From the NCBI GenBank assembly GCA_017551675.1, contig JAFZLC010000036.1, positions 1-60,658 on the forward strand: a DNA stretch of 60,658 bases, read 5' to 3'. A program made the translations under genes and the position numbers. Source of the stretch: Paludibacteraceae bacterium (GTDB lineage: Bacteria; Bacteroidota; Bacteroidia; Bacteroidales; Paludibacteraceae). Below the pieces are notes generated by a model that was given only the letters and a program-made list of their open reading frames with translations, had not been told where the DNA came from and did not search any database. Positions 9,601 to 60,658 of the stretch are shown one piece after another. The first letter of the stretch is position 1; every line of letters starts with the position of its first letter.

Positions 9601-9948
9601 ATGAAAAGGATTGAAGCGATTATCAGAAAGACTAAGTTCGAAGAGGTCAAGGAGGCGCTAGGTCGTTCAGACATTGACTGGTTTGAGTATCATGATGTGC
9701 ACGGTATCGGACAAAGTCGACAGGAGCGCATCTACCGTGGAGTACTTTACTCTACCGATGTTATTGAGCGTGTGGCTATTACAATTGTTTGCCGTGATCA
9801 GTTTTTGGAACCTACTGTAAAGGTAATAATGGAAGTGGCGCACACTGGAGAGGTTGGAGACGGTCGAATCTTCACCAGCGAAGTTCTCGACACCTATAGT
9901 ATTCGTACGGGAGAAAATGGCGATACGGTGTTAAGAGACAAAAAGTAA
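9601..9948 (+). CDS. P-II nitrogen regulatory protein (GlnB/GlnK family)
   Basis: 115 residues. The start at 9601 (MKRIEAIIRKTK) matches all P-II proteins; an upstream in-frame ATG at 9565 would add 12 residues of AT-rich leader. P-II trimers bind 2-oxoglutarate and ATP/ADP and control AmtB and glutamine metabolism. The C-terminal signature EVGDGRIFTSEVLDTYSIRTGE and the T-loop YRGxxY are present; Y50 aligns with the tyrosine modified in enteric P-II. The T-loop itself (GIGQSRQERIYRG) and the segment after it are unlike E. coli GlnB/GlnK. The gene is 35 nt upstream of amtB, the classical glnK-amtB pairing, so AmtB gating is the likely main job. Confidence 0.93.
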   Translation: MKRIEAIIRKTKFEEVKEALGRSDIDWFEYHDVHGIGQSRQERIYRGVLYSTDVIERVAITIVCRDQFLEPTVKVIMEVAHTGEVGDGRIFTSEVLDTYSIRTGENGDTVLRDKK

Positions 9949-9983
9949 CAATTTGACAAACAACTTTTAATTAGATTAGAATT

Positions 9984-11213: not shown

Positions 11214-11265
11214 AATTACAACTTACAACTTTACAATTACATATTACAACTTAATGATTACAATT
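11213..11265 (+). repeat. Imperfect TTACAAC-type repeats between amtB and the porin gene
   Basis: About five TTACAA(C/T) units at irregular 7-14 nt steps fill the whole 52-nt leader of the next gene. The sequence is low-complexity and AT-rich. Each unit matches half of the palindrome at 9401-9415 (CTTACAAC), which may be chance. Confidence 0.4.
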
Positions 11266-47417: not shown

Positions 47418-48382
47418 GACTCAAACTCCTTTCTTTTCCTAATCTGATGAGGAAGATATATATAATAGAAAATGACAAATGCGAAGGAACCTCCGATGAT
47501 AAACAATTTGACAAAGAGAGGCCATTCTGTGTGTCGGGTTGCAAAACTCTCCAAAAAGGCTGCAATAATGGTGATAGGAAGAATGGAAAGAATAATCTTC
47601 ACGCTTCGCAAACCACTTCGTTTCAGCGCTTCCTTTCGAGACATGTTACCTGGGAAAACCCAACCCATTCCTAATGCCAGAGATGCAGCACCACCTATAA
47701 TGATGGAAGGAATTTCAAGTGCACCATGTATCCAAATGGCAGACATCGATTCTAAACCCACATCCTTTAGGAAAAAGAGAGTTTGAAACTCGCCCAACAT
47801 GACACCATTCACCTTTAGAATGTATCCTGGTCCAAGAATAGGAATGATACCGTACATATACGTTATTAAATCTACCCTTAGGTTATTTAAGACAATATAA
47901 AAGAACATGTGTTTCGGGGACGATTGACCATATACATTGGTGGGAACGCCATTTTTTATGTTTTCAAGCGTCATCTCTACATATCCAGGTCCTAATGTGT
48001 CAATTACATTTTGGATGTCTTGAACAGCAAGTATAACTCCTGCAATGGTAAAAGCAGTGAAGAGGGCAAAGGAAAGTTTCATCTCCACATGAGCCTCTGC
48101 CACCATTGAAGGGACATATTCGGTAAAGAACTTGATGACGGAATGGATGATGTCGTGTTTCTTAGGCCTACACACATACTCATGAAGCATCAAAGCCATA
48201 TTGTTTAAGTAAGCTGTGACGCGAGCATTAGGATAGTGTCCTTGTGCATATGCACAATCGGCCGTTATGTCCTGATAAATGTCGGAAATCTGTTGTGTGG
48301 AAAGTGTGCTCAAATGAGAAATTTTTTCCTCATATTTATTCCATTTTTCCTTGTTCTGTTTTACAAAAATATATTCCTTCAT
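47414..48382 (-). CDS. SpoIIM-family (stage II sporulation protein M-like) membrane protein
   Basis: 322 residues from the ATG at 48380-48382 (MKEYIFVKQNKEKW); an ATG three codons earlier (48391) is possible. A soluble helical N-terminal region (about 1-95, with DITADCAYAQGHYPNARVTAYLN) precedes about six transmembrane helices. The core segment MFFYIVLNNLRVDLITYMYGIIPILGPGYIL and the HGALEIPSIIIGGAASLALG motif near 220 are typical. Outside spore formers this family travels with RDD, MoxR and DUF58 genes. First gene of the five-gene operon, divergent from the RDD gene. Confidence 0.88.
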   Translation of the reverse strand: MKEYIFVKQNKEKWNKYEEKISHLSTLSTQQISDIYQDITADCAYAQGHYPNARVTAYLNNMALMLHEYVCRPKKHDIIHSVIKFFTEYVPSMVAEAHVEMKLSFALFTAFTIAGVILAVQDIQNVIDTLGPGYVEMTLENIKNGVPTNVYGQSSPKHMFFYIVLNNLRVDLITYMYGIIPILGPGYILKVNGVMLGEFQTLFFLKDVGLESMSAIWIHGALEIPSIIIGGAASLALGMGWVFPGNMSRKEALKRSGLRSVKIILSILPITIIAAFLESFATRHTEWPLFVKLFIIGGSFAFVIFYYIYLPHQIRKRKEFES

Positions 48383-48403
48383 AAAAATCATTCCATTCCA
48401 ATG

Positions 48404-48412
48404 ACAAAGATA
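48404..48412 (-). promoter_or_regulatory. -7 box of the SpoIIM-DUF4129-DUF4350-MoxR-DUF58 operon
   Basis: The minus strand reads TATCTTTGT, an exact match, 22 nt upstream of the start. The divergent RDD side shows no equally good box; the nearest is around 48480-48495. Confidence 0.6.
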
Positions 48413-48498
48413 GAGTAAAAATACTTAGATTTGCAAAAAATAATAATATTAAAAAACAAAAAGGAGTGTAAATTCCATCAACTAATTTGTAATTAGCA

Positions 48499-49227
48499 GT
48501 GATAGATAGTTTAAACATTACCAACGGACAATACGTACAATTGAATTATCAGATTGCGGGGACGGAAAAACGAGTTTTTGCTGTTATCGTCGATCGTTGC
48601 ATTCAATTTATATTATATTGGATGTTATTTAAATTCCTTGATTCTGTTTCGTTTCGTTATTTCTTCTCGGGTTTTTTTAGGGAATTCATAATAATTGTAA
48701 GTATTTTCATCGTTTATCTGATAAATCTGATGCAAGAGATTTTTTTGCATGGAAAAACGATAGGGAAATACCTATTTAAGATAAAGGTAATAACGGAGCA
48801 ATCGGAGCCCCCCTCATTTCAGCAATGTTTCATTCGTTGGATACTCTATCCGATAGATGCATTAATCATAGGTATGGTTATGATATCCAAGCATGGTCAG
48901 CGCATTGGAGACATGGCATCAGGCTGTTATGTTGTCTTTGATGAGAGGTCGAAAGTAGTGAAGGCATCTATCGAAACAGACTACCAATATATAAAAGAAA
49001 ACTACAAACCCGAATATGAAGAAGAAGAACTAAGAGGAATGAAAGAGAAGGATATTCAGCTGATTCTAAAGGGATTGTATAATGTGAAATATGTATCACA
49101 AATAAATGATGTAGCATCTATTATCTGTAAAAAATATAATCTTACAAAAAGAAATATGAGTGCAAGAGAATTCCTCGTACGACTATATAATGATTATAAG
49201 TATTATGAGTTGAATAGGGAACAGTAG
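48499..49227 (+). CDS. RDD family membrane protein
   Basis: 242 residues. Three or four hydrophobic helices within residues 25-155, including the RDD-type first helix (AVIVDRCIQFILYWMLFKFL, with the Arg-Asp pair reversed as DR) and GKTIGKYLFKIKVI near 86. The C-terminal part is soluble and charged (about 160-242). The family is predicted to be a small transporter or ion-coupled protein. Divergent from, and conserved with, the SpoIIM-MoxR operon. Confidence 0.85.
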   Translation: MIDSLNITNGQYVQLNYQIAGTEKRVFAVIVDRCIQFILYWMLFKFLDSVSFRYFFSGFFREFIIIVSIFIVYLINLMQEIFLHGKTIGKYLFKIKVITEQSEPPSFQQCFIRWILYPIDALIIGMVMISKHGQRIGDMASGCYVVFDERSKVVKASIETDYQYIKENYKPEYEEEELRGMKEKDIQLILKGLYNVKYVSQINDVASIICKKYNLTKRNMSAREFLVRLYNDYKYYELNREQ

Positions 49228-49314
49228 GGGCGAATAGCATTCGCCCATGTTGAATGTGCGCACTAACGAGGATATGTTAATGAAGAGGGGCAAATGCATT
49301 TTGTGGCACTAACG
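49227..49314. repeat. Two-unit imperfect repeat with a GGGCGAAT/ATTCGCCC palindrome
   Basis: Unit A (49227-49268) and unit B (49287-49314) both run from GGGGCRAAT through GCATT to GCACTAACG. Unit A contains the perfect inverted repeat GGGCGAAT-AGC-ATTCGCCC. It fills the whole gap between the RDD and esterase genes and may serve as their shared terminator. Similar GGGGCGAAT palindromes are, from memory, widespread intergenic elements. Confidence 0.55.
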
Positions 49315-49316
49315 CT

Positions 49317-50078
49317 TCACCTCCCCGCGTACGATTGCAAAAATTCCCCTATGTAAACACGCCAACTTTGCCAATTATGTCTGCCTTTTGTTTTCTTAAA
49401 ATCATGCGGGATTTGATAGCGATTGAACCTACGATTGATACGTCTCGACCTTGCATAAAACAGATCCCGACTACCACAACGTATCCAATATTCTGCTCCC
49501 GTGCTCTTCTTAGGTATCTGGCACTGTAATATCACAGGAGAGAACAATCCTACCACATCAAAATGATATTGCTTACTTAAATTTAATGCTTGTCGCGCTC
49601 CACTACTTAGTCCGGCTATCTTTTTTGCTCCACCTATCGAGTAGTGAGCTTTTACATACGCTTCTATCTCTGGGAATAAAACTTCAAATTCCCCCTTTTT
49701 TATATGATGGTTGAAGTCATGCATAGACTTGAAATAGCTGGGCAACTGATATGCTGTCATTGTATCGTTTACCACACAAAGTGGCATTACTATCACCAAA
49801 GGTTCTATTATCCTTCCCTGAATTAAACTATCTGCCAACTCTGCAATATGCGCCTCATCTTCCCATGAATACTGATTACCATGCATTCCGTGCAATAAAT
49901 AGAGGACAGGGTAGACCGAATCTGCATGATAAGAGGGTGGGGTATAAACTGTTAGATATCGTGGTTCTCCATTCTTTTCGCTTACAAATCGAACCGTATC
50001 TATCCTCCCACCTGCCATCATGTGCATGACATGGAATAACAATGCTACTATTAATGCTATTAGGCTTTTGACTGACAT
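49317..50078 (-). CDS. Secreted esterase of the putative esterase (esterase D/feruloyl esterase-like) family
   Basis: 253 residues. Signal peptide about 1-22 (ending HMMAGG). The alpha/beta-hydrolase nucleophile is S158 in AGLSSGA (GxSxG); oxyanion region YLLHGMHGNQYSWED near 60-74; catalytic His likely in GRHNWQSW near 235. Substrates for this family include S-formylglutathione and feruloyl or acetyl xylan esters; a periplasmic glycan esterase is plausible here. It overlaps the end of the glycosyltransferase gene by 19 nt. Confidence 0.82.
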   Translation of the reverse strand: MSVKSLIALIVALLFHVMHMMAGGRIDTVRFVSEKNGEPRYLTVYTPPSYHADSVYPVLYLLHGMHGNQYSWEDEAHIAELADSLIQGRIIEPLVIVMPLCVVNDTMTAYQLPSYFKSMHDFNHHIKKGEFEVLFPEIEAYVKAHYSIGGAKKIAGLSSGARQALNLSKQYHFDVVGLFSPVILQCQIPKKSTGAEYWIRCGSRDLFYARSRRINRRFNRYQIPHDFKKTKGRHNWQSWRVYIGEFLQSYAGR

Positions 50079-51193
50079 ACCATTGCGTCTTTCAGCATTG
50101 ACTCAAAATCTCGTACAACCTCTGTTAATCGATACTTCTTGGCCTCCTGAGCATACTTTATTTCCATCTCTTTGCGCTCCTCTGGATGTTCTATCCAATA
50201 TTCAATACGATTCTTCAGATCCTCAGCATTGCCCACTTCAAAGAGAGAACGATCGTCCAAAGCAAACTGTTTAGTGGCAGAAAGCGGACTATTCGAGATG
50301 ATAGGCACCAATCCTGTAGCAAAGGCTTCGATACAACTGATGGCTTCACTCTCCATATCACTGGCATGTACGTATAGATGTGTCTTGTGTAACAGCTCGA
50401 TCAACTCCTCGCGTGAGTAATATCCGAAAATGGGAGGGTTAGTCAAATCCTTTCCTAACCGGCGATAACATTTCTCCATCGGTCCGGTGCCAGCAAATAG
50501 CAATTGGATGTTCTTTTCATATTTGCTCATTTTCACGGCTTTAATCACCAAATCTTGTCTTTTTTCAGGGGATAATCTTCCCACCATTGTGATGACAAAT
50601 TTATCTGGATATTGGTCTTCATCGGCGGGACGATAATAGACAAAGTCGTTGGAGATTCCGTTGCTGATAACGTGTAATTGGTTGTCAAATCCATAATGTT
50701 TCAACTCGTCGGCCATCATCTGACTAGGGCAATGTATATGTTGCACCCCTTTGTACATGGTCTTGTAATGAATTCGATAAAGCATACGGTTGATCCATTC
50801 CACCTTACCTAGGTGAAAAGCTGAGCTGATGTTTTCTGCTTGTATATGAAAGGCGGCAGTAAGAGCTTTCCCTCTGGACTTTGCCATTTTCTTTATTTTA
50901 CAACCTAGAAAGAAAGGGGTATATACATGAACAACATCACACCAATCCAATGCCTGGTTGATAATTGCTTTATTCGGCACAGAGTACTGAAATCCATTAG
51001 CATCCAGAATAGGTTTGAATGGAGTTTTCAACTCTTTTAATGCATATATATAATCTGGATAAGGAGGTTCAGCATTGGTGATAACACGCACTTCATGTCC
51101 CATTTTTCGTAAGGTTTCCGCATAGCGTTGAGCAGAAATGCTGGTACCGTTTTTATGCGACTGAAACGCGTCAATTGCAAATAATATCTTCAT
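50060..51193 (-). CDS. Glycosyltransferase family 4 protein
   Basis: 377 residues. GT-B fold: N-terminal acceptor domain with the loop GTSISAQRYAETLRKMGHEV and CDVVHVYTPFFLG near 90, C-terminal donor domain with VGRLSPEKRQDLVIKAV near 207 and the E-x7-E motif ESEAISCIEAFATGLVPI near 296. It transfers a sugar to a lipid or glycan at the inner face of the membrane. DUF-type resemblance to mannosyl or glucosyl diacylglycerol transferases is possible but not decisive. It precedes the esterase in the same operon. Confidence 0.9.
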   Translation of the reverse strand: MKILFAIDAFQSHKNGTSISAQRYAETLRKMGHEVRVITNAEPPYPDYIYALKELKTPFKPILDANGFQYSVPNKAIINQALDWCDVVHVYTPFFLGCKIKKMAKSRGKALTAAFHIQAENISSAFHLGKVEWINRMLYRIHYKTMYKGVQHIHCPSQMMADELKHYGFDNQLHVISNGISNDFVYYRPADEDQYPDKFVITMVGRLSPEKRQDLVIKAVKMSKYEKNIQLLFAGTGPMEKCYRRLGKDLTNPPIFGYYSREELIELLHKTHLYVHASDMESEAISCIEAFATGLVPIISNSPLSATKQFALDDRSLFEVGNAEDLKNRIEYWIEHPEERKEMEIKYAQEAKKYRLTEVVRDFESMLKDAMVCQSKA

Positions 51194-51301
51194 TGTTATG
51201 CCTATAGCTTATTTTCTGTTATTTTAGATATACGAATTAAAAAATGACGCAACACAGCGTATCCCTTATTTTGACTTATTCATATAAATATCATTGCCGC
51301 G

Positions 51302-51310
51302 ACAAAGATA
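51302..51310 (-). promoter_or_regulatory. -7 box for the glycosyltransferase-esterase operon
   Basis: The minus strand reads TATCTTTGT, an exact match; this would leave a leader of about 100 nt. The rest of 51194-51399 is AT-rich without features. Confidence 0.5.
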
Positions 51311-51399
51311 TATCATATTTTATAAAATTCGATGTTTAAAATAGATTTTATGCATGTGCTTGTTATCTATGTGCATTTTAGCGGACAGAAATAATTTAA

Positions 51400-52116
51400 T
51401 TATTCCTTTTTCCTTCCTTTAATTAGTTTTATCAAAAACCGTACAATTTTTTCAAACTTATCAATGGTTGTTTTCAATATAACAGATAAAATGAATGTTG
51501 TTACAAGAGCTAATAAAAGAGGGATCCTTATCATTTTCCACGTAGAACGAGTGATTTCCCACGTAGAACATGAACTTTGTTCATTATAATTAAGATTACG
51601 ATTATTATAGTAATAACTTTCAGGATCCATCAGATTCTCTTGTGTACAGTGCGCCGGTAAATCCAAATTCGAAAAGACAGAATCATATTGGAGAGAATCG
51701 TTTTCTAGTGAGAGACAAAAATAGCGTCCCTTGGAGAGTCCATATAAAAGACTATCCATTTTAGCAATGCTATCTATCTCATCTATGTTATGGTTTCCTT
51801 CAATATAAAATGGCATATTATCGGTAGAGATGATTTTATATTGTGGATTTATTTGTACGTATCGGTAGTCGCTATCGCCAGAATAGGTGTTCTCTTTCTT
51901 CCCAAGCAAAAGGCTAAAGGAGAAGAAAAAAGAAAAGAAGAACAACAAAATGACAGCTGAAACATTGTATGTTATGAGATTGCGAAGAAGATGACTCTTT
52001 TCGGAGAATATAAATGTTAATATTGTAATAATTACACATATATATGGTAGATAGGATGTGACTAATACAATAAAAATAGTAGCCAGACTTATAAAGAAAA
52101 ATGAGATAACTTGCAT
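51400..52116 (-). CDS. Unknown membrane protein
   Basis: 238 residues. N-terminal hydrophobic helices (about 3-30, 32-50 and 50-75), a polar extracytoplasmic domain (about 76-185, rich in Y, D, S and N), then one C-terminal helix (about 190-215, RIPLLLALVTTFILSVILKT) with a basic cytoplasmic tail ending KGRKKE. I do not recognise the family. Codon use and AT content resemble the core genes. Read alone from tandem -7 boxes at 52189-52231. Confidence 0.7.
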   Translation of the reverse strand: MQVISFFFISLATIFIVLVTSYLPYICVIITILTFIFSEKSHLLRNLITYNVSAVILLFFFSFFFSFSLLLGKKENTYSGDSDYRYVQINPQYKIISTDNMPFYIEGNHNIDEIDSIAKMDSLLYGLSKGRYFCLSLENDSLQYDSVFSNLDLPAHCTQENLMDPESYYYNNRNLNYNEQSSCSTWEITRSTWKMIRIPLLLALVTTFILSVILKTTIDKFEKIVRFLIKLIKGRKKE

Positions 52117-52182
52117 ATTAAATTATATTGATTGAAAATGAACTCGACTATACCTCCGAGTATATTCCTCTTATCTTGTTAC

Positions 52183-52231
52183 TTGTATGCAAATTTAGAT
52201 AAAAAATATAATTTTTTTGTATGCAAATATA
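52183..52231 (-). promoter_or_regulatory. Tandem -7 boxes and a 12-nt direct repeat upstream of the unknown membrane protein
   Basis: TTGTATGCAAAT occurs at 52183-52194 and 52217-52228, 34 nt apart. Each overlaps a minus-strand -7 match: TAAATTTGC (52189-52197) and TATATTTGC (52223-52231). The gap 52117-52487 holds this and the possible remnant at 52283-52486. Confidence 0.45.
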
Positions 52232-52282
52232 CTATTCCCACGATGCGAGCACTATAGTATAATTTGTAATATAATTAATCTT

Positions 52283-52486
52283 ATGTTAAATAATAGCAAG
52301 GAGCTTATTCCATTATCATATGCAATGGATACCCATTGACGTTATTTTTCATAATCTGAATTCAAATAATCATTTACAGAATTGTTGATGGCAAAATATT
52401 AATATACACATGCAAGTGTGACGAAAATAGTTGCTCTTATTATTGTACAACCAATGATCCTGGAGATTATCACTACTTAAAATCAC
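52283..52486 (+). pseudogene. Possible degraded small coding sequence
   Basis: An ATG at 52283 gives MLNNSKELIPLSYAMDTH and stops; in another frame from about 52370 comes a start-less peptide reading IVDGKILIYTCKCDENSC, then SYYCTTNDPGDYHYLK, with four closely spaced cysteines. The two parts look protein-like but are out of frame, as if a gene of about 70 codons has decayed. Its end runs into the crcB 3' end. No family is recognised; this could be chance. Confidence 0.22.
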
Positions 52487-52487
52487 T

Positions 52488-52874
52488 TCACATAACACCC
52501 CAAACACGATACCCCAGCGCCACTAAAACTACGCCGGCAATGACACTCAAAGCGATATAGCCAACAAAACCTAGGATGTTTCCGGTTTGTAGCAACATCA
52601 ACGCCTCTTTAGAGAAGGTTGAGAACGTGGTAAAACCACCACAGAGTCCAACGGTCAGGAATAAAGCCCATTTGCTACTCTCGCTAGCGCTTCGGCTGAA
52701 ATATCCCCACAAAAGCCCGATCAGAAAGCAACCCAACAGATTCACGGCAAGAGTCGCCCAAGGAAACCCTTTGCCGACACTTTTCATTGCCAAAGAGACA
52801 AGATACCTTGCTGCTCCACCGATGAAACTACCAGCCCCAACGACCACAATATTTTTGATGATGTCTGATACCAT
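52488..52874 (-). CDS. crcB: Fluoride ion channel CrcB/Fluc
   Basis: 128 residues, four helices. A dual-topology dimeric channel that exports fluoride. Signatures GAGSFIGGAARYLVS (about 13-27) and GLCGGFTTFSTFSKEA (about 76-91, the phenylalanine-box region) are intact. A single gene, so a homodimer is expected. I searched its leader by eye for a fluoride riboswitch and found none. Confidence 0.95.
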   Translation of the reverse strand: MVSDIIKNIVVVGAGSFIGGAARYLVSLAMKSVGKGFPWATLAVNLLGCFLIGLLWGYFSRSASESSKWALFLTVGLCGGFTTFSTFSKEALMLLQTGNILGFVGYIALSVIAGVVLVALGYRVWGVM

Positions 52875-52893
52875 TGAAATCTATTTTATTGGC

Positions 52894-52902
52894 ACAAAGA
52901 TA
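52894..52902 (-). promoter_or_regulatory. -7 box for crcB
   Basis: The minus strand reads TATCTTTGT, exact consensus, 20 nt from the ATG. Confidence 0.55.
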
Positions 52903-52975
52903 CTAACTTTCTGGGGCATATCCCATAGGTAAGTCAATAGCAAATCGTCTCTTCCGTTAATTTTGGTAATTCTTC

Positions 52976-53021
52976 CCGAAATTCAGATACCTTCACTCCC
53001 CCGAATGTGGCATATCTTTGT
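52976..53021 (+). promoter_or_regulatory. Promoter with putative AraC-type site for the hydrolase operon
   Basis: CCGAAATTCAGATACC (52976-52991) ends exactly 21 nt before the -7 box TATCTTTGT (53013-53021). The same element at the same distance precedes the flavodoxin gene (56220) and the alcohol dehydrogenase gene (60374). A second CCGAA starts at 53001, 25 nt after the first. Position fits an activator replacing the -33 contact. Confidence 0.6.
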
Positions 53022-53049
53022 ATCAGTAAAAATTCAAAACCAATTTGAA

Positions 53050-54138
53050 ATGAAGAAATTAATAATAAGTGTTGCTTGCATTGCCGCACTAATGGGTTGC
53101 TCGCAACAAAAAACTGAAAAGACAATGAACACAGAAGAATTACAACTCACGCAGGAATGGGACAAGGTTTTCCCTCAGAGCGACAAAGTGAACCACAGCA
53201 AGATAACGTTCCACAATCGTTATGGCATAACTTTAGCCGCCGACCTTTACGTGCCGAAAAACGCTACGAAACCAATGCCCGCCCTTGCTGTGAGTGGCCC
53301 GTTTGGGGCTGTGAAAGAGCAGACTTCAGGCCTATATGCCCAAACAATGGCTGAACACGGATTTCTGACCATCGCCTTCGACCCGTCGTTCACAGGCGAG
53401 AGTGGCGGTGAACCACGCCGTATGGCCTCGCCCGACATTAACACCGAAGATTTTCTGGCAGCTGTTGATTATCTATCAAATCGTGAAGATGTTGATGCAG
53501 AAAAGATTGGTATCATCGGCATTTGCGGTTGGGGTGGAATGGCAATCAATGCCGCCGCTATCGACCCCCGTATCAAAGCGACCGTGGCAAGTACTATGTA
53601 CGATATGAGCAAAGTGACTGTTGAGGGATATTTCGGCAGTGAAAACACACCCGCACAACGCATGGAGAAACGTCGTGCAATCAGTGCCCAACGCACCGAA
53701 GACTACCGAACGGGCAGTTACAAGCGTGCAGGAGGCGTGGTTGATCCCCTACCCGACGACGCACCGTGGTTTGTGAAAGATTATTATGACTATTACAAAA
53801 CACCACGTGGTTACCATAAACGTAGCGGCAATTCAAACGATGGTTGGAATGTTATCGGCTGTCAGTCGTTCCTCAACCAAAATCTGCTATGTTTCGCCAA
53901 CGAGATTGAAACGCCCGTTCTGCTCGTCCACGGCGAGAAGGCTCACAGCCGTTATTTCAGCGATTATGCCTTTGAAAAGATGACAGGCGTGAAACCGGAA
54001 GAGGGCAAAAGCGCGAAGGTGGGCAACAAGGAGCTGCTGATTATCCCTGGTGCCGTCCACACTGACCTTTACGACAACAAGGCTGGAGTGATTCCTTACG
54101 ACAGAATCGCAGCGTTTTTCCGTGAGAATCTAAAATAA
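53050..54138 (+). CDS. Alpha/beta-hydrolase family lipoprotein
   Basis: 362 residues from the ATG at 53050, chosen because it gives a lipoprotein signal MKKLIISVACIAALMGC (lipobox LMGC). The upstream in-frame extension has no signal. Body: alpha/beta-hydrolase of the YcjY/dienelactone-hydrolase type (RYGITLAADLYVPKN about 58-72, FDPSFTGESGGEPR about 109-122, LLVHGEKAHSRYF near 300, PGAVHTDLYD near 335 with the catalytic-type His). The elbow reads GICGWGGMA, with Trp where a Ser nucleophile is expected; the preceding Cys may serve instead. First gene of a three-gene unit. Confidence 0.8.
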   Translation: MKKLIISVACIAALMGCSQQKTEKTMNTEELQLTQEWDKVFPQSDKVNHSKITFHNRYGITLAADLYVPKNATKPMPALAVSGPFGAVKEQTSGLYAQTMAEHGFLTIAFDPSFTGESGGEPRRMASPDINTEDFLAAVDYLSNREDVDAEKIGIIGICGWGGMAINAAAIDPRIKATVASTMYDMSKVTVEGYFGSENTPAQRMEKRRAISAQRTEDYRTGSYKRAGGVVDPLPDDAPWFVKDYYDYYKTPRGYHKRSGNSNDGWNVIGCQSFLNQNLLCFANEIETPVLLVHGEKAHSRYFSDYAFEKMTGVKPEEGKSAKVGNKELLIIPGAVHTDLYDNKAGVIPYDRIAAFFRENLK

Positions 54139-54148
54139 TGCAAGGACA

Positions 54149-54730
54149 ATGAAGCAAATCACCTTTATCGTAACAATTGTTTTATTTGTCTGTTGTTCAG
54201 CGAATAACAAACTAAAAGCCGAACCTATGAGCGAGAAATTGTTTATCACCGTCAACGGCACAACTTTCACCGCCACTTTGGTCGACAACAGTTCGACGCA
54301 GGCGCTGGTCGATGCTCTGAAAAAGGCGCCAATCACCTACGAGGCTCACGATTACGGCAATTTTGAGAAAGTTGGCGATTTGGGACAGTCGTTCCCCACA
54401 AACGACGAATCAATCACTACCGAGCCTGGCGATTTAATTCTGTATCAAGGTCATAACCTTTGCATTTACTACGATGTGAACACGTGGACTTTCACTCGTC
54501 TGGGCAGAATCGACAACGCCACACAACAGGAACTGAAAGCCGCGCTGGGCAATGGGAATGTTAGCATAACGCTCTCATTGTCAGAAATAAAAACTGGTAT
54601 AAATGATGTAAAATCTTCGCCCGCCACTGACAATCGGAAATTCGACCTTCAAGGCCGCCAAATAAGCACCGTCACTGTCGGGCAGATTTATATCGAAAAC
54701 GGGCAGAAAAAGATAAAAATCAGCAAGTAA
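54149..54730 (+). CDS. Secreted cyclophilin-like protein with a Prevotella-type C-terminal tail
   Basis: 193 residues. N-terminal signal with a lipobox-like LFVCCS (about 12-17). The central part (about 28-140) matches the cyclophilin-like barrel domain found beside flavodoxins and reductases (FITVNGTTFTATLVDNSSTQALVDAL, EPGDLILYQGHNLCIYYD, WTFTRLGRI; each cited by its ends). After a linker comes RKFDLQGRQISTVTVGQIYI then ENGQKKIKISK, resembling the terminal secretion/sorting tails of Prevotella proteins. The enzyme role is unknown. 10 nt after the hydrolase. Confidence 0.75.
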   Translation: MKQITFIVTIVLFVCCSANNKLKAEPMSEKLFITVNGTTFTATLVDNSSTQALVDALKKAPITYEAHDYGNFEKVGDLGQSFPTNDESITTEPGDLILYQGHNLCIYYDVNTWTFTRLGRIDNATQQELKAALGNGNVSITLSLSEIKTGINDVKSSPATDNRKFDLQGRQISTVTVGQIYIENGQKKIKISK

Positions 54731-54745
54731 CTTAAAATCAACAAT

Positions 54746-55285
54746 ATGAACGTTTTAGTAATATCAACAAGTCTGCGCCCCACAAGCAATTCCGACGCTT
54801 TGGCGCGTGAGTTTGCGCGTGGTGCCGCCGATGCAGGGCACAAGGCCGAGGTAGTCTCGCTTCGCGGAAAGAAAATTGAATTTTGCAAAGGTTGTTTCGC
54901 CTGTCAGCAAACGCAAAAATGCGTGATAAAAGACGATGCACCCGCCATTGTGGCTAAAATGCACGATGCCGATGTAATTGCCTTTGCCACACCCATTTAC
55001 TACTACGAGATGAGCGGTCAACTGAAAACCCTTCTCGACCGCGCCAACCCGCTCTATACGTCTGATTACAAGTTTAGTAGCATTTATATGCTAACCACCG
55101 CCGCCGAAGACGAGGCGTTTGTGCCCGGGCGCGCCGTTGCGGGCCTAACGGGCTGGGTTGACTGCTTTGAGAGGGCGAAGCTGGCAGGAACTGTCTTTGC
55201 AGGCGGTGTGAACGAAATGGGCGAAATCGAAGGCCACAAGGCACTTGGCGAGGCGCATGAAATGGGCAAGTCAGTTGGGGAATAA
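54746..55285 (+). CDS. NAD(P)H-dependent FMN reductase / iron-sulfur flavoprotein-like oxidoreductase
   Basis: 179 residues. Flavodoxin-like fold: VLVISTSLRPTSNSDALA (FMN phosphate loop, about 3-20) and FATPIYYYEMSGQLKTLLDR (about 75-94). The cysteine set CKGCFACQQTQKC (about 48-60, spacing x2, x2, x5) matches the compact cluster motif of iron-sulfur flavoproteins and related family members. Likely a cytoplasmic electron-transfer or quinone/disulfide reductase. Third gene of the hydrolase operon, 15 nt after the previous one. Confidence 0.82.
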   Translation: MNVLVISTSLRPTSNSDALAREFARGAADAGHKAEVVSLRGKKIEFCKGCFACQQTQKCVIKDDAPAIVAKMHDADVIAFATPIYYYEMSGQLKTLLDRANPLYTSDYKFSSIYMLTTAAEDEAFVPGRAVAGLTGWVDCFERAKLAGTVFAGGVNEMGEIEGHKALGEAHEMGKSVGE

Positions 55286-55289
55286 TTGT

Positions 55290-55309
55290 CCGAAATTCTG
55301 TAAATTTGC
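55290..55309 (+). promoter_or_regulatory. araC promoter with overlapping CCGAAAT element
   Basis: CCGAAATTCTGTAAAT (55290-55305) overlaps the -7 box TAAATTTGC (55301-55309) of the araC gene, 16 nt before its ATG. Elsewhere the element sits 21 nt upstream of the -7. Overlap with the -7 suggests autorepression. Confidence 0.5.
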
Positions 55310-55324
55310 AAAAAGCAAAAAAAA

Positions 55325-56212
55325 ATGAAAGAGATACATTTCGATACAGTTCAGCAATTCAACGATTTTTACGGCTTTGAGACTCTGCACCCGTTGGTGA
55401 GCGTGGTGCGCTATGAAAAGCAACAGCCTATCGACGAATGTTTGGTTCACTATGGCGTGTACGCATTGTTCCTGAAAGAGAACAAAGGCTGCAAACTCTC
55501 GTACGGCCGCACAAAATACGACTTCGACGAGATGACCGTCACTTCGTTTGCGCCTGGCCAACAGATTCTCGTTGAGCCGAACCCCGACGTGGTTTTCCCA
55601 AAGTGGACGGCACTGGTCTTTCACCCTGATTTTTTGGCACGCACGCAGTTGGGGCGGCAGATGTCGCGCTACGAGTTTTTCTCTTATTCGAGCAACGAGG
55701 CGCTGCACCTTTCCGTAGGTGAGATTGAGATTTTCCGCAGCGTTTTGGCGATGATTCAGCAAGAGTTGCAACACGCTATCGACAAACACTCACGCGAGTT
55801 GATTGTGTCGAACATTGAATTGCTATTGAACTATTGCTTAAGGTTTTACGACCGTCAGTTTATTACCCGTGAGGAGATAAACCACGTAACGGTGCAGCGT
55901 TTCGAGTCGCTTTTAGACGATTATTTGACCGAAAAGGCCGAAACCAACGGCATTCCGACAGTGGCTTACTTTGCCGAGCAATGCAACCTTTCGGCTGGCT
56001 ATTTCGGCGAGTTGGTGAAGGTGGAAACGGGCCGCACGGCGCAGGATTTCATTGCCGACCGAATTGTTCGTCGCGCCAAGGAACTGCTTAACAGTCAGAC
56101 GTTAAGCATTGCTCAAGTGGCCGACCGTCTGGGCTTCGGTTATCCGCAACATTTTGTCCGCTTCTTCAAACGCAAAACGGGCAAGACACCAACAGAATAC
56201 AGGGCGGCGTAG
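55325..56212 (+). CDS. AraC family transcription regulator, likely controller of the adjacent redox genes
   Basis: 295 residues. N-terminal sensor domain (about 1-170, cupin-like), C-terminal double helix-turn-helix: AEQCNLSAGYFGELVKVETG (about 218-237) and LSIAQVADRLGFGYPQHFVR then FFKRKTGKTPTEYR (about 260-293). It lies between the hydrolase operon and the exported flavodoxin. The CCGAAAT elements in front of those genes, the alcohol dehydrogenase gene and itself are its most likely sites. Members such as YqhC of E. coli control aldehyde reductases, which suits the set. Confidence 0.88.
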   Translation: MKEIHFDTVQQFNDFYGFETLHPLVSVVRYEKQQPIDECLVHYGVYALFLKENKGCKLSYGRTKYDFDEMTVTSFAPGQQILVEPNPDVVFPKWTALVFHPDFLARTQLGRQMSRYEFFSYSSNEALHLSVGEIEIFRSVLAMIQQELQHAIDKHSRELIVSNIELLLNYCLRFYDRQFITREEINHVTVQRFESLLDDYLTEKAETNGIPTVAYFAEQCNLSAGYFGELVKVETGRTAQDFIADRIVRRAKELLNSQTLSIAQVADRLGFGYPQHFVRFFKRKTGKTPTEYRAA

Positions 56213-56219
56213 ATACTTT

Positions 56220-56265
56220 CCGAAATTTGTTTATCTAAAAGATATCGAAAGAATTGTATATTTAC
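56220..56265 (+). promoter_or_regulatory. Flavodoxin promoter with putative AraC-type site
   Basis: CCGAAATTTGTTTATC (56220-56235), 21 nt, then -7 TATATTTAC (56257-56265; last G replaced by A). A second TCGAA lies at 56245, 25 nt after the first, as in the hydrolase promoter. The imperfect -7 agrees with need for an activator. Confidence 0.6.
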
Positions 56266-56286
56266 TTTATCAAATCACAAAACAAA

Positions 56287-56811
56287 ATGAAACAGATAGT
56301 ATTAACATTCCTTAGTTTTTTTATTATGAGTACAGTATCAGCACAAAACAAAACTCTTGTGGCTTATTTTTCAGCTTCGGGTGTAACCAAGAAAGTGGCT
56401 ACAGAATTGGCGACGGTTGCCAATGCTGATCTTCATGAGATTAAGCCTGCTCAAGCCTACACCAACGCAGATCTTGACTGGCACGACAAGCAATCACGCT
56501 CGTCGGTGGAGATGGCCGATAAAAAGTCACGTCCTGCCATTACAGCTAAACTCGCAAACATGTCTGACTATCAAACAATTTACGTTGGATTCCCTATTTG
56601 GTGGTACACTGCTCCGACCATTATCAATACTTTCCTCGAGAGTTATGACTTCAGTGGCAAAACCGTTTACTTGTTTGCAACAAGTGGTGGTAGCACCATC
56701 GACAAGGCTGTCAAGGATTTGAAGGCGGCTTATCCTAAAATCAATATCAAAAGCGGTCGCCTGCTCAACTATGCAGGTAAAAATGAGTTGCAGGAATTTG
56801 TTGGGAAGTGA
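56287..56811 (+). CDS. Flavodoxin with a signal peptide
   Basis: 174 residues from the ATG at 56287, chosen because it gives a clean signal peptide ([20 protein letters not shown]) with an A-x-A-like end. The mature part begins [20 protein letters not shown], the FMN phosphate loop, and has [20 protein letters not shown] near 98-117 and [15 protein letters not shown] near 127. Flavodoxins normally stay in the cytoplasm, so export implies a periplasmic electron carrier or reductase. Expressed from its own promoter behind araC. Confidence 0.88.
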
Positions 56812-56848
56812 TGATTAGATAGTATCGAACTATAATACAGAATGGTAC

Positions 56849-56892
56849 AATCGGCAAAAAGCTTTCGTGGAAGGTGTTTTGCCGATTTTGTT
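56849..56892 (+). terminator. Terminator after the flavodoxin gene
   Basis: AATCGGCAAAA / TTTTGCCGATT, 11-bp perfect stem with a 17-nt loop, followed by TTGTTTG. It also lies downstream of the convergent AraC gene and may serve both strands. Confidence 0.8.
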
Positions 56893-56934
56893 TGAATTGA
56901 TGAGCAAACACTTCCTCTCCTTTTTGTTCTCCTC

Positions 56935-57813
56935 TCACCCCTTCCGATACTCCTTTGGACTCATACCCTTCAGACGCAAGAAGAACTTGCTAAATGAAGG
57001 GGTGTCGGCAAAGTGGAGATAGTCAGCTATCTGAGAGATGCTCAGTTGGGAGGTTTTCAACAGGAATGTTGCCTCAATCATTAGCATCTGATTGATATAG
57101 TCGATAACAGTGCGACCTGTCACCTGACGAACTACGCGGGAGAGATAGACTGTAGAGATATGGAGCTGGTCGGCATAGAACGGGATGTCGTGGTGCTGAG
57201 CAAAGTAACGAGGCAGCAGACGAATGAATTCGATGAAAATTTCCTCCACACGCTGGGGTGTCTGACGGTGTACGATGGCACGCTGCTGGGCATTCTGCAG
57301 GTCAAGCAGGAATATGGAATAGAGCATGCGCAATACCTCACCTTTGTATATATGATCGGAATGAATATAGCTGATGATTTCGCACATTTTCATGAGCAGA
57401 TGCTTTACGGAATCTGAGGCCAATGTCTGTTTCGGCTCATGCAACTGTACGATGGGCATGTAGGCCAGATATACGAGGTCGTGGACAGATGGTGCCTCGA
57501 TGGTGACATGCTCATCGGCCATCAGACAGAAGCCGTGGAAATCGTCAGAGGTAGCCATGACGGAGACGGGGAGGCACGGTGAATAGACGTACAAATCGTT
57601 GGGGTGAATCGTCAGTTCACGACCATTGTAGTGAATTGTCATCCATCCTTTGTCAACTAGCATAAAGGCGAAGCAGGAAACGAATCCCTTCGTCAGGTTG
57701 GTACGAAGGATTATCTCTGCATTTGTTTCTATGCAATACATTCCTTCATTCCAGCCTTTTTCTGGCAAATCGTCGCCAACAAATATTGGCAAATATTCAT
57801 TCAGCGTATACAC
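56935..57813 (-). CDS. Second AraC family transcription regulator
   Basis: 292 residues. N-terminal ligand-binding part (about 1-160) with FVGDDLPEKGWNEGMYCIE and HPNDLYVYSPCLPV, then a helical linker and the C-terminal double helix-turn-helix: ADQLHISTVYLSRVVRQVTG (about 218-237) and LSISQIADYLHFADTPSFSK then FFLRLKGMSPKEYRKG. It resembles regulators that open many Prevotella redox or efflux loci. No CCGAAAT element lies in its short upstream gap (57814-57837), so it may be read from the HNH gene upstream. Confidence 0.88.
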   Translation of the reverse strand: MYTLNEYLPIFVGDDLPEKGWNEGMYCIETNAEIILRTNLTKGFVSCFAFMLVDKGWMTIHYNGRELTIHPNDLYVYSPCLPVSVMATSDDFHGFCLMADEHVTIEAPSVHDLVYLAYMPIVQLHEPKQTLASDSVKHLLMKMCEIISYIHSDHIYKGEVLRMLYSIFLLDLQNAQQRAIVHRQTPQRVEEIFIEFIRLLPRYFAQHHDIPFYADQLHISTVYLSRVVRQVTGRTVIDYINQMLMIEATFLLKTSQLSISQIADYLHFADTPSFSKFFLRLKGMSPKEYRKG

Positions 57814-57837
57814 CTCGGTAATTTACAATTTAACGAT

Positions 57838-58782
57838 TTACGATTTCATTTGGGGCGCAAAATTATCTTCAATCATCAGGTCGCTCTTGCCCAAGTTACA
57901 TTCTGAACAGAGTGTTTGTAGGTTCTCCATCACCGTCTCGCCACCCTTAGAATACGGATAGATGTGGTCTATGTGCAGGACTACCGATGGGTCGGTTGCC
58001 GGTGACTTTCCACACTTGCAACACTTAAAATGGTCACGCGCCATGATGCGGAAACGCAAACGGAGATTGATGTCGCGGCGGGTTTTATGCCTGATGACTT
58101 TACCTTCGTCAATAGTCGTTATCGACTCGTTCTCTTCTATGGTTTCTGTTGGGGTATACTCACTTTCATCGTCGGAGTTGATGTAAGCAACAAATGCTTC
58201 CAATGCCTTGCGCCAACCGCCAAAACGATATAAATAAGGTTTTGCATTTATTTTTGACAATCCTTTAGAGCGAAAATCAGCAACAGTAGGCTGATGTCCT
58301 AACTTTATCCAAACACGCTCCATCTCCTCAAGGAGCTCTCTGTCTGAATATGCTCGTTTCGGACCAGTTCTAAATGGAGTCTGTTCTAAGCCAGCAGCAA
58401 TCAAGAGACCATTCCAACCGCCATATTTCTTTGCTCTTTGACCACGGTTGTATTTGCCATGCTTGTCATATTCTGGTCCACTTATATAATTTCTTCCCAT
58501 CAATGCAGCTACACTGCGTATATCTTCAATCAGAACATCGTCGCTCTCGCAATAATCATGATTCTTCAATCGACCGTGCTCTACTGACAAACCTGCTCGC
58601 TTCAGAACTTCATTCCAAGAACCGAATCTGTTTTTTACCGTGTTATAACTATATTTACCATGAGCAGTATAGTCTTTGCAAGAAAGTGATTCCTTCTGCA
58701 AAGCCTCTGCCACTCGTTTCACGTCGGCAATCAGTTCTTCGTCGGGCGTATTCCGATGATAATCATTGAGTACGAATTCCAT
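57838..58782 (-). CDS. HNH endonuclease with homing-endonuclease-associated repeats
   Basis: 314 residues. Three tandem repeats of about 50-55 residues (about 14-70, 76-130, 146-196), each with an (I/M)xxVxxxL opening and a (F/Y)GxWxxxLxxxAG end, of the type linked to homing endonucleases; they probably bind DNA. The C-terminal HNH domain has zinc-type CxxC pairs (CCKCGKSP, LCSECNLG) and the catalytic HIDHIYPYSKGG (about 277-288). It could be part of a mobile or defence-type system; no intron or intein is visible nearby. It lies between AraC 2 and the DUF2442 gene. Confidence 0.88.
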   Translation of the reverse strand: MEFVLNDYHRNTPDEELIADVKRVAEALQKESLSCKDYTAHGKYSYNTVKNRFGSWNEVLKRAGLSVEHGRLKNHDYCESDDVLIEDIRSVAALMGRNYISGPEYDKHGKYNRGQRAKKYGGWNGLLIAAGLEQTPFRTGPKRAYSDRELLEEMERVWIKLGHQPTVADFRSKGLSKINAKPYLYRFGGWRKALEAFVAYINSDDESEYTPTETIEENESITTIDEGKVIRHKTRRDINLRLRFRIMARDHFKCCKCGKSPATDPSVVLHIDHIYPYSKGGETVMENLQTLCSECNLGKSDLMIEDNFAPQMKS

Positions 58783-58822
58783 AAGCAGAGTTTAGAATGA
58801 TCGTTTCGTTCTGTATTATTTA

Positions 58823-59074
58823 CTACGCCGCCACGCCCAGCTCATAGAGCCTTTCGGGCGCGAAGCCTATTACGTCGTTCCAGTCGATGGTGAAGGGGTC
58901 GAGGCGGAAGGAACAGAAATAGTCTATGTCATGCAGCTTGCGGCAGATGCCTTTCTGCACCAGCGGCGAGAAGTCCACTAGCAGCACCTCGCCTGTGCTG
59001 AACGTCAGGCGCAGCGTGTAATCGCCAGCGTACTCGGCGGCGGTCACTGTGAGTAATGGGTTCTTTGTTGTCAT
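58823..59074 (-). CDS. DUF2442 domain protein
   Basis: 83 residues: short beta-rich fold with VTAAEYAGDYTLRLTFSTGEVLLVDFSPLV (cited by its ends) and FRLDPFTIDWNDVIGFAPERLYELG, the typical ending of the family. DUF2442 genes often sit directly beside DUF4160 genes and are suspected antitoxin-like partners. Here the DUF4160 gene upstream is broken. This locus is far richer in G+C (about 60%) than the flanks, pointing to horizontal gain. Confidence 0.85.
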   Translation of the reverse strand: MTTKNPLLTVTAAEYAGDYTLRLTFSTGEVLLVDFSPLVQKGICRKLHDIDYFCSFRLDPFTIDWNDVIGFAPERLYELGVAA

Positions 59075-59088
59075 ATCTGTGCTCCTTT

Positions 59089-59345
59089 TTATTTTAACGG
59101 GTCAATCTTCTTGGCGGCCTCGCAGTTCGACAGGCGCTCCCAGTTCTCCATCAGCTCTTCGCGGTGCAGATCGAGCCACTCATAGACGAGGCGCAAGGCG
59201 CGGCGCGGCATTTCACCACGGACGATGCCGTCCTTGATGGTCACCTCGGCCTGGTAGTTGTCGTATCAGACGTGGAAGTGCGGCGGGTTGTGGTCATCGA
59301 TGTACATGTAGATGAGATTCCGTAGAATTTGTTGATTTCTGGCAT
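59089..59345 (-). pseudogene. DUF4160 pseudogene (frameshift plus in-frame stop)
   Basis: From the ATG at 59343-59345 the frame reads MPEINKFYGI and then shifts. In a second frame the family sequence resumes (IYMYIDDHNPPHFHV), hits a TGA at 59266-59268, and runs on as YDNYQAEVTIKDGIVRGEMP and RRALRLVYEWLDLHREELM to a TAA at 59089. The length of 257 nt is not a multiple of three. Without the frameshift near 59316-59325 and the stop it would be a normal DUF4160 protein of about 85 residues. A good -7 box remains upstream, so the decay may be recent. Confidence 0.85.
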
Positions 59346-59374
59346 AATCGTATTGCTTTTATTGTTCTTTGGCT

Positions 59375-59383
59375 GCAAAGTTA
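59375..59383 (-). promoter_or_regulatory. -7 box upstream of the DUF4160 pseudogene
   Basis: The minus strand reads TAACTTTGC, exact consensus, 30 nt from the ATG. It probably still drives DUF2442. Confidence 0.5.
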
Positions 59384-59403
59384 ATCATTTTTTGCATTTA
59401 CGC

Positions 59404-59479
59404 ATCGTTTCGGACGTTAAATGTGCGAAATAATCTCATGACCGTATCGTTTCAGACAATGTTTGTATTGTTTCAGATA
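59404..59479. repeat. Three copies of an AT(C/T)GTTTC(A/G)GA(C/T) element upstream of the ferritin-like gene
   Basis: Copies at 59404-59415, 59446-59457 and 59468-59479, with start-to-start steps of 42 and 22 nt (near four and two helical turns). They fill the divergent gap 59346-59558 together with two -7 boxes and look like operators. Confidence 0.5.
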
Positions 59480-59502
59480 TGTATTCGTGTGAAATACAAC
59501 GT

Positions 59503-59510
59503 AACTTTGA
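59503..59510 (+). promoter_or_regulatory. -7 box for the ferritin-like gene
   Basis: TAACTTTG, exact core, 48 nt before the ATG. The third repeat above lies 23 nt upstream, near the -33/-45 position. Confidence 0.5.
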
Positions 59511-59558
59511 AATCGAAAAAGAAAAATATATCGTTTAACTTTTAATTTGAGAAGTATT

Positions 59559-60014
59559 ATGGACAAGCAGAAATCTATTGAAGCTTTACAGTTTTTCGTA
59601 ACTCATTTGGCAGAAGGTGCCATCGTTCACAAGCAACAGGGTATGATTTTCAAATCACAGGGCATCACCAAGCTCGGACAGAAGTACGTCGACCATTTCA
59701 ATGAGGAGATGGCCTGGGTAGAAAAGTTCACAGAGCGCATTCTCGACCTCGGTGGAGAGGTTAAATTCGAAGGCATGAAGAGTCGCGACCTTATTTGCGA
59801 CCCTGTTGAGTATGTCAAGGCTGACCTTGCTATTCAGGAGCCAGGTGTTGAGCTACTGTTGAAATGCATGGATGGTGTGAAGGGCGATCCTACCACCTAC
59901 GATCTGTTGAAGGATTACCTAAAGGACGAGGAGGAAGACTTGTACTGGAGCCAAGGCGCAGTAGAGCTTATCGAGAAAATTGGAACACAGAACTGGCTGT
60001 TATTACAACTATAA
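59559..60014 (+). CDS. Ferritin-like (Bfr/Dps-like) iron-storage protein
   Basis: 151 residues from the ATG at 59559 (MDKQKSIEALQFFVTHLAEG); an in-frame ATG four codons upstream is weaker. All-helical, with E and H residues spaced as in a four-helix ferroxidase bundle (HFNEEMAWVEKFTERILDLGGEV about 46-68; EEEDLYWSQGAVELIEKIG about 125-143). Cysteines lie in LICDP (about 79) and LLKCMDG (about 102). Dps-like Bfr relatives in Bacteroides store iron and guard against peroxide; that role is inferred. Confidence 0.72.
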   Translation: MDKQKSIEALQFFVTHLAEGAIVHKQQGMIFKSQGITKLGQKYVDHFNEEMAWVEKFTERILDLGGEVKFEGMKSRDLICDPVEYVKADLAIQEPGVELLLKCMDGVKGDPTTYDLLKDYLKDEEEDLYWSQGAVELIEKIGTQNWLLLQL

Positions 60015-60037
60015 GAAACAAACTTAATACAAAGATT

Positions 60038-60211
60038 ATGAAAGAACGTGTATTACAAGCCATGCGTGAGTTCGGTGCACCCGTCAACGCTGGCAAGATT
60101 GCAGAAATTACAGGTATCGACCGCAAGGAAGTGGACAAGGCTTTTGCTGAGCTCAAGAAAGAGGGTGCCATTGTATCGCCCGTACGCTGCAAGTGGGAAC
60201 CTGCGAAGTAA
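60038..60211 (+). CDS. Small winged-helix-like transcription factor
   Basis: 57 residues. A compact helix-turn-helix: VLQAMREFGAPVNAGKIAEI, then TGIDRKEVDKAFAELKKEGA and a beta-wing IVSPVRCKWEPAK. It is 23 nt after the ferritin-like gene and followed by a strong terminator, so the two form an operon. Such tiny wHTH proteins may regulate their partner gene. No further family assignment. Confidence 0.75.
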   Translation: MKERVLQAMREFGAPVNAGKIAEITGIDRKEVDKAFAELKKEGAIVSPVRCKWEPAK

Positions 60212-60297
60212 TATCTCAGCATCAACGATTTTGCCGTTGGCCTTATTATGATAATGATGCTCTACGAAGTGATGAATTAAGTTCTCATATAATCAAA

Positions 60298-60333
60298 AAA
60301 TCCTCCATATCGCTGGTGATATGGAGGATTTTT
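60298..60333 (+). terminator. Terminator of the ferritin-like operon
   Basis: AAATCCTCCATATC / GATATGGAGGATTT, 14-bp stem with a 6-nt loop, followed by a TTT run. Strong intrinsic terminator. Confidence 0.88.
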
Positions 60334-60373
60334 CGTCTCTTTGAAGCAGAAACCGCAATAATGGTAATCCTTA

Positions 60374-60419
60374 CCGAAATCTGTTTACCGCATTTATGCC
60401 CCACGTTGCTTACATTTGC
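60374..60419 (+). promoter_or_regulatory. Alcohol dehydrogenase promoter with putative AraC-type site
   Basis: CCGAAATCTGTTTACC (60374-60389), exactly 21 nt, then -7 TACATTTGC (60411-60419). Same element and spacing as at 52976 and 56220. Confidence 0.6.
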
Positions 60420-60444
60420 ATTATCAATTTAAAACAAAAACAAT

Positions 60445-60658
60445 ATGCAAAATTTTGATTATCAAACCCCGACCCGTCTTATCTTCGGCAAAGGCGTAAT
60501 CGCAAAACTGCCCGAAGTTATGGCGCAGTTCGGCAAAAAAATCCTTCTCACCTACGGCGGTGGAAGCATCAAGAAAATCGGTATCTATCAGAAAATCAAG
60601 GAACTTTTGAAAGATGCCGAAATCATCGAACTCTCAGGCATTCAGCCCAATCCAAAAT
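60445..60658 (+). CDS. Iron-containing alcohol dehydrogenase (5' part; runs off window)
   Basis: First 71 codons: MQNFDYQTPTRLIFGKGVIA, then KLPEVMAQFGKKILLTYGGG and SIKKIGIYQKIKELLK. This is the N-terminal NAD(P)-binding part of the iron-containing ADH family, closest in style to YqhD/BDH (PTRLIFGKG, LLTYGGGSIKK). YqhD reduces toxic aldehydes with NADPH. The metal ligands lie beyond the window. Its promoter carries the CCGAAAT element. Confidence 0.85.
   Translation, partial: MQNFDYQTPTRLIFGKGVIAKLPEVMAQFGKKILLTYGGGSIKKIGIYQKIKELLKDAEIIELSGIQPNPK

Follow-up and report, generated by a model that had tools for sequence, protein, structure and literature searches.

A putative AraC-family detoxification regulon in Bacteroidota with a direct-repeat operator at a fixed distance from the -7 box

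Contig JAFZLC010000036.1 of a Paludibacteraceae bacterium (assembly GCA_017551675.1; 60,658 nucleotides (nt), the whole stretch analysed and called the window here) carries towards its end a gene for an AraC-family regulator, together with genes for a hydrolase, an FMN reductase, a flavodoxin and an iron-containing alcohol dehydrogenase. We propose, at a probability of about 0.8, that this protein is a class II AraC activator that replaces the -33 contact at its promoters and turns on detoxification enzymes upon inducer binding. Its predicted full operator is a pair of 21-bp direct repeats with the pattern CMGWAAT-N3-GGTA/KNTAC, whose downstream end lies 21 nt ahead of a TAnnTTTG box. The operator, its spacing and conservation, its link to an AraC subfamily, the types of target gene and a covariation between box and recognition helix were established computationally. 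The regulon and its operator are new; the kind of regulator is already known. The features concerned are as follows.

52955..52991, + strand: predicted AraC operator of the hydrolase operon (upstream half CGTTAAT..GGTA at 52955-52968, proximal half CCGAAAT..GATACC at 52976-52991)
53013..53020, + strand: predicted -7 box TATCTTTG, 21 nt past the hydrolase operator
53050..54138, + strand: alpha/beta hydrolase of the Peptidase_S15/DLH type (Pfam)
54149..54730, + strand: cyclophilin-like protein, PF18050 (Pfam)
54746..55285, + strand: NADPH-dependent FMN reductase family protein (Pfam)
55290..55305, + strand: fourth copy of the element in the sequence-only reading, in the araC leader; judged not to be an operator (misfit to the repeat, CCGAA unconserved, absent from the lists of models R1 and R2, described below)
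55325..56212, + strand: AraC-family regulator, proposed operator binder (HTH_18/HTH_AraC; AraC/RhaR-like N-terminal domain in the predicted model; tracking of the operator)
56220..56235, + strand: candidate proximal half-operator CCGAAATTTGTTTATC ahead of the flavodoxin gene, upstream half missing (sixth with R1, eighth with R2)
56257..56264, + strand: predicted -7-like box TATATTTA, 21 nt past the flavodoxin half-operator
56287..56811, + strand: flavodoxin (Flavodoxin_4, Pfam) with an apparent signal sequence, judged by eye
60353..60389, + strand: predicted AraC operator of the alcohol dehydrogenase (CCGCAAT..GGTA at 60353-60366, CCGAAAT..TTTACC at 60374-60389), repeated at C28:7191
60411..60418, + strand: predicted -7 box TACATTTG, 21 nt past the dehydrogenase operator
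60445..60658, + strand: iron-containing alcohol dehydrogenase of the YqhD type, cut by the window end (Fe-ADH; NCBIfam PRK15138 is the best match, below cut-off)

An earlier, sequence-only reading of this region had singled out a 16-mer at 52976, 56220 and 60374, and it had placed the three copies correctly, each exactly 21 nt ahead of TATCTTTG, TATATTTA and TACATTTG respectively. Exact matches to CCGAAATNTGTTTANC occur four times in the 3.31-Mb genome, at 56220, at 60374 and twice on contig C28; in the whole genome about 0.02 would be expected with uniform bases. The 16-mer is real and part of the operator, of which it forms one half-site, but alone and with three mismatches it is at chance level and was rejected as the motif: the window holds 4 such matches against 2.44 expected, and in the genome the forward strand has 164 (control with the reversed pattern: 170) and the reverse strand 172 (control: 181). 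The copy at 52976 is itself four mismatches away from the consensus of that reading.

A longer element was recognised by comparing the upstream regions of orthologous genes, and was searched for in 61 genomes. The pattern GGTA-N7-CCGAAA-N6-TACC-N21-TAnnTTTG with at most three mismatches has five matches in the own genome, ahead of the hydrolase and dehydrogenase genes of the window and ahead of the hydrolase, dehydrogenase and CMD-cupin genes of C28, and its reversed control has none. All five matches thus belong to the two clusters. The hydrolase operator is conserved ahead of the hydrolase genes of relatives.

The architecture of the operator emerged from distant loci, among them those of Bacteroides, Paraprevotella, Mucilaginibacter, Niastella, Larkinella and Rufibacter. 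In these relatives, whose AraC is about 50% identical, the element takes the form GGTA-N7-CNGTAAT-N5-TA and likewise ends 21 nt ahead of the box; 35 of its 50 boxes lie at 21 nt and nine at 42 nt, the latter because the upstream repeat was read as a separate element. Although the scan required nothing upstream of GGTA, CMGTAAT was found there in register in 45 sites, with a mean of 5.16 of 6 positions matched (0.4-2.6 at other offsets), and one column of this upstream repeat is A in 45 of 45. The unprompted upstream copy therefore points to an operator of two direct repeats 21 bp apart, and the inverted repeat GGTA...TACC that had been considered was dropped once the distant sites revealed this arrangement. 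Within the window the hydrolase operon has CGTTAAT as its upstream box and the dehydrogenase CCGCAAT, and the flavodoxin has none; in the CMD-cupin operator of C28, CCGAAATATTGG is exactly repeated 21 bp apart. At the variable fourth base the two halves agree above expectation (35 sites with T in both, 19 with T in neither and 14 mixed, 68 of 90 sites being comparable), an agreement that is inflated by related sequences.

The gap up to the -7 box is rigid. When left free, the longer element was followed by 40 boxes, of which 34 lie at 21 nt, two at 20 nt and one each at 2, 10, 19 and 22 nt, many of these sites being near-identical orthologues; 41 of 81 distinct stretches had no box, and these were mostly three-mismatch matches. 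A gap of 21 nt gave 90 distinct sites before open reading frames (ORFs) in 121 loci, and each of 12 other gaps gave 0-7. The 90 were obtained from 127 sites by removing repeats, any site that fell within an ORF and any with no ORF start in the next 300 bases; a few of them look like chance matches (L125:7188, L203:10965). The TAnnTTTG box was required by the scan, yet it is enriched at one gap only. According to PMC7366714, TAnnTTTG at -7 is the promoter consensus of the Bacteroidota sigma-A (sigma-ABfr), and the -33 motif is not found in all Bacteroidota. At about -33 of the present sites, where such a promoter would have TTTG, the KNTAC operator box occupies the place, with no TTTG signal in 45 sites. 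The fixed distance claimed by the sequence-only reading is thus borne out, and its suggestion that the site stands in for the -33 contact agrees with the sequence.

Two site models were used to rank promoters in the own 3.3-Mb genome. R1 was trained on 12 sites, none of them from the own genome or its close relative G010, and R2 on 45 mostly distant sites, hand-picked by the analyst from locus searches. R1 ranks the hydrolase operator first (E 1.1e-4), followed by the hydrolase and dehydrogenase sites of C28, the CMD-cupin site of C28, the dehydrogenase operator (5e-3) and, weakly, the flavodoxin site (0.099); the next match stands at 0.43. The top five of R2 are the same five sites, led by the dehydrogenase (5.2e-8) and the hydrolase (5.6e-8), with the flavodoxin site eighth (E 0.245).

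The regulator has a C-terminal AraC domain with two helix-turn-helix (HTH) motifs and a cupin-like N-terminal ligand and dimerisation domain of the AraC/XylS kind, which in the predicted structure model is AraC/RhaR-like (VIA-align). Among 61 relatives, this AraC was found at E<=1e-60 in 18, and the operator (E<=1e-4) in 17 of the 18, at least three of which (G031, G033, G042) had supplied R2 training sites. The exception, G018, has araC near a contig end and no operator at E<=1e-4. Of the 43 relatives with no AraC at E<=1e-60, four have the operator (G003, G007, G011, G041). Across 148 genomes drawn from the phylum, the AraC (E<=1e-120) and the operator (E<=1e-4) each occur in 11, with ten genomes in common; in nine of these ten, all except the own genome, a divergent araC has an operator 63-89 bp away. 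The operator was seen again in 12 of 13 stretches from these genomes, and none of the re-seen operators is identical to a training sequence, although L273 is a few bases off training site L202. The earlier claim of an AraC regulon is in this way supported at the sequence level: the operator tracks close relatives of the AraC and mostly adjoins them.

Box and regulator also vary together. Residue 225 lies in the recognition helix of the first HTH (HTH1) in the predicted model; N at this position goes with CNGTAA boxes (26 of 30 sites), G or K with other boxes (CNGTAA in 1 of 11). YPQHF, with which the second recognition helix begins, is nearly constant, as is the GGTA box. We infer that HTH1 would read CMGWAAT and HTH2 GGTA/KNTAC. 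Cys 171 (alignment A4), in a long helix past the cupin-like domain of the predicted model, is invariant in 40 of 40 aligned regulators and is a possible redox or electrophile sensor.

The first genes of at least 100 amino acids were scanned behind 63 of the 90 operators (L136-L215) with Pfam at E<=1e-6, where a protein may match several families; the counts are among the 25 of 45 families listed. Aldo/keto reductases are the commonest (17), followed by Peptidase_S15-type hydrolases as in the window (10), AraC (9), cyclophilin-like proteins (5), 1-deoxy-D-xylulose-5-phosphate synthase (Dxs, 3), hexapeptide transferases (3), DUF3737 (2), Flavodoxin_4 (2), Fe-ADH (1), CMD (1) and others. Operators unlinked to the cluster precede another flavodoxin/CMD-cupin locus, and also genes that by similarity encode an FMN reductase, a flavodoxin and a hydrolase. 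Dxs is unexpected for a detoxification regulon; it was observed behind the operator at L121:9634 (gene 9746-11503) and L145:7153 (gene 7241-9001), the latter locus being one of the three scanned. The gene behind the site in L123 has 584 amino acids, the same length as the Dxs gene of L121.

In the own genome the cluster recurs in rearranged form on contig C28 (G000:C28:4000-17400, L061), with AraC 95%, hydrolase 93% and the start of the dehydrogenase 93% identical to the window. This copy encodes a glutathione peroxidase, a hydrolase, a flavodoxin, a YqhD-type dehydrogenase, a second flavodoxin, Ogt, YjbR, a hexapeptide transferase, an aldo/keto reductase, PNPOx, the CMD-cupin protein, GNAT and AraC. 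The two 95%-identical AraC proteins should cross-regulate. The C28 dehydrogenase, a full-length paralogue of that in the window, has YqhD as its best NCBIfam match, and the aldo/keto reductases of C28 and Rufibacter have DkgA, all below cut-offs. Against the E. coli proteins themselves, the C28 dehydrogenase has 39% identity with YqhD and the C28 aldo/keto reductase 39% with DkgA. With an operator at the YqhD-type gene and a DkgA-type gene in the same cluster, the sequence suggests a control of both types of reductase, and in L179 (Rufibacter hautae) the DkgA-type gene lies directly behind the operator.

Two further proposals of the sequence-only reading fared less well. It had taken a fourth copy, at 55290, for a site of araC autorepression; this copy is a misfit to the operator and is in neither the R1 nor the R2 list. 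Where it has CCGAA, the orthologous leaders of G010 and G018 have TTGAA, and C28 lacks the motif, so that the autorepression site was rejected. Several relatives have a full operator ahead of araC, positioned as at target genes. The second YCGAA 25 nt downstream of the first was likewise abandoned, since most other promoters do not conserve it. At L090:7424-7612 (G004:C50) an araC-type operator precedes a short araC remnant (38 residues matched), which suggests that a local araC copy has been lost; in L124 an operator of the L090 type stands with no araC ORF found just behind it.

The remaining features of this part of the window are listed here.

52488-52874: fluoride channel gene CrcB (profile matches)
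56935-57813: second AraC-family gene beside the cluster (Pfam)
57838-58782: HNH endonuclease, located between flavodoxin and dehydrogenase and carrying three homing-endonuclease-associated repeats
59559-60014: gene for a protein with a ferritin-like domain, ahead of the dehydrogenase operator

In 48000-60658 every RNA family stayed below its gathering score, and no fluoride riboswitch is therefore seen beside CrcB at that threshold. An inverted repeat followed by a T run was seen by eye at about 60300-60335, between the ferritin-like gene and the dehydrogenase operator. The second AraC-family gene is matched in part on C28 (L061:6555-7094).

In the proposed mechanism, the AraC protein (55325-56212) and its 95% identical paralogue would bind as a dimer to the two direct repeats, HTH1 of each subunit contacting CMGWAAT (CCGAAAT here) and HTH2 contacting GGTA or KNTAC some 10 bp beyond it. 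With the proximal half stopping 21 nt short of TAnnTTTG, its second box would sit where the Bacteroidota sigma-A seeks its -33 element. Aldehydes or other electrophiles, bound in the cupin-like N-terminal domain, would let the protein recruit RNA polymerase to promoters that have no -33 box, and so switch on aldehyde- and redox-detoxifying enzymes: YqhD- and DkgA-type reductases, the hydrolase, FMN reductase, flavodoxins and the CMD-cupin protein. Binding, dimerisation, inducer, the assignment of HTH motifs to boxes and activation rather than repression are in this scheme all presumed.

Several observations weigh against this scheme. The flavodoxin site is a half-operator (E 0.1-0.25); no such half-operator was found after araC in G010, G018 or L136, and on C28 a site of this type is kept without a gene behind it. 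A perfect 27-bp element at L072:14315 has no -7 box behind it. The reversed control of the longer pattern matches in other genomes, 65 times in G060, and for this reason lone matches far from a cluster were not trusted. G067 has the AraC (E<=1e-120) and no operator match, also when its stretch was searched again; conversely G179, G041, G003, G007 and G011 have the operator with no close AraC found, the last three being genomes less than 90% complete. The E<=1e-120 cut-off was set after a gap in the data had been seen, and most loci were gathered because they contain this AraC. At the looser E<=1e-60, the operator is present in 10 of the 35 phylum genomes with the AraC and 1 of the 113 without it, from which we take it to belong to one AraC subfamily. 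The covariation at residue 225 is largely one split in the tree.

These points bear on other explanations to different degrees. The operator might be bound by another protein, either the second AraC-family member that adjoins the cluster or an unlinked regulator, with the present AraC only a target, and the operators of G041 and G179 that have no close AraC would fit this. We consider it unlikely: across the phylum the operator follows the close relatives of the first AraC, mostly next to them, and its box varies with HTH1 of that protein, whereas the second AraC, in the loci compared, has a partial match on C28 and elsewhere is matched over the shared HTH only. That the whole pattern arose by chance, or from the common ancestry of two duplicated clusters, can practically be set aside. 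Two of the four exact 16-mers are indeed in the paralogous copy, and many sites of relatives are near-identical orthologues, but the same operator is found phylum-wide and in unlinked genes, with AraC relatives of about 50% identity, and the leave-own-out ranking, the gap test and the tracking across the phylum already contradict such an origin.

The same AraC could instead be a repressor relieved by its inducer, as the sequence-only reading had proposed for araC. Many divergent araC genes have an operator at their side, and protein bound there could affect the araC promoter too. A fixed gap would, however, be of little use to a repressor, and the site keeps a constant 21 nt from the -7 box on its upstream side, at the -33 position, the place of a class II activator, which is also where several relatives carry the operator of their own araC; repression therefore seems improbable. 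As for the signal, oxidative or quinone/redox stress in place of aldehydes is a serious possibility, if not the one we prefer, given the flavodoxins, FMN reductase and CMD-cupin protein among targets or neighbours and the glutathione peroxidase gene adjoining the C28 cluster. For aldehydes speak the aldo/keto reductases as the commonest first gene (17 of 63) and the joint occurrence of relatives of E. coli YqhD and DkgA.

Activation at the -33 position would resemble class II activation in the AraC/XylS family, known from araI1-araI2 of AraC and from XylS at Pm. Both have direct repeats spaced by some two helical turns (about 21 bp here), of which the proximal one lies at the upstream promoter element, and an AraC/RhaR-like regulatory domain. 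The system differs in its boxes, in its Bacteroidota TAnnTTTG promoter instead of a sigma-70 promoter, and in a gap that is constant across distant members of the phylum. SoxS, MarA and Rob recognise a single 20-bp site; here a full-length protein with a ligand domain would meet a direct repeat. The analogy to E. coli YqhC-YqhD drawn by the sequence-only reading holds for the target types, with relatives of YqhD and DkgA at 39% identity, and for an AraC-family regulator that is often divergent from its targets. It does not extend to the regulator, which resembles YqhC in the HTH only (25% over 80 amino acids), is without PF06719 AraC_N and was thus rejected as an orthologue. The yqhD promoter is described in PMC6115493 with a SoxS-like sequence and a 24-bp palindrome, unlike the 21-bp direct repeat found here, and the present system has more kinds of target. 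On our best reading, this AraC would work like E. coli YqhC without being its orthologue.

As far as we know, Bacteroidota have few described transcription-factor operators, and their promoters are unlike those of E. coli. No publication on this operator was among the entries listed by a literature search of open-licence papers, though print literature beyond these could hold one. In its broadest form, the proposal is of one old electrophile-stress regulon of the Bacteroidota, a counterpart of YqhC/SoxS in which one AraC subfamily would act through an inflexible array (repeat, 21 bp, repeat, 21 nt, -7 box) in place of the -33 element, with strictly activator-dependent promoters and, in some lineages, command also of Dxs; we regard this as an even bet. 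Regulator, likely operator, fixed promoter geometry and target genes are obtained here together. They would provide a candidate part for an inducible promoter, and a likely answer to how gut and other Bacteroidota sense reactive aldehydes or related stress.

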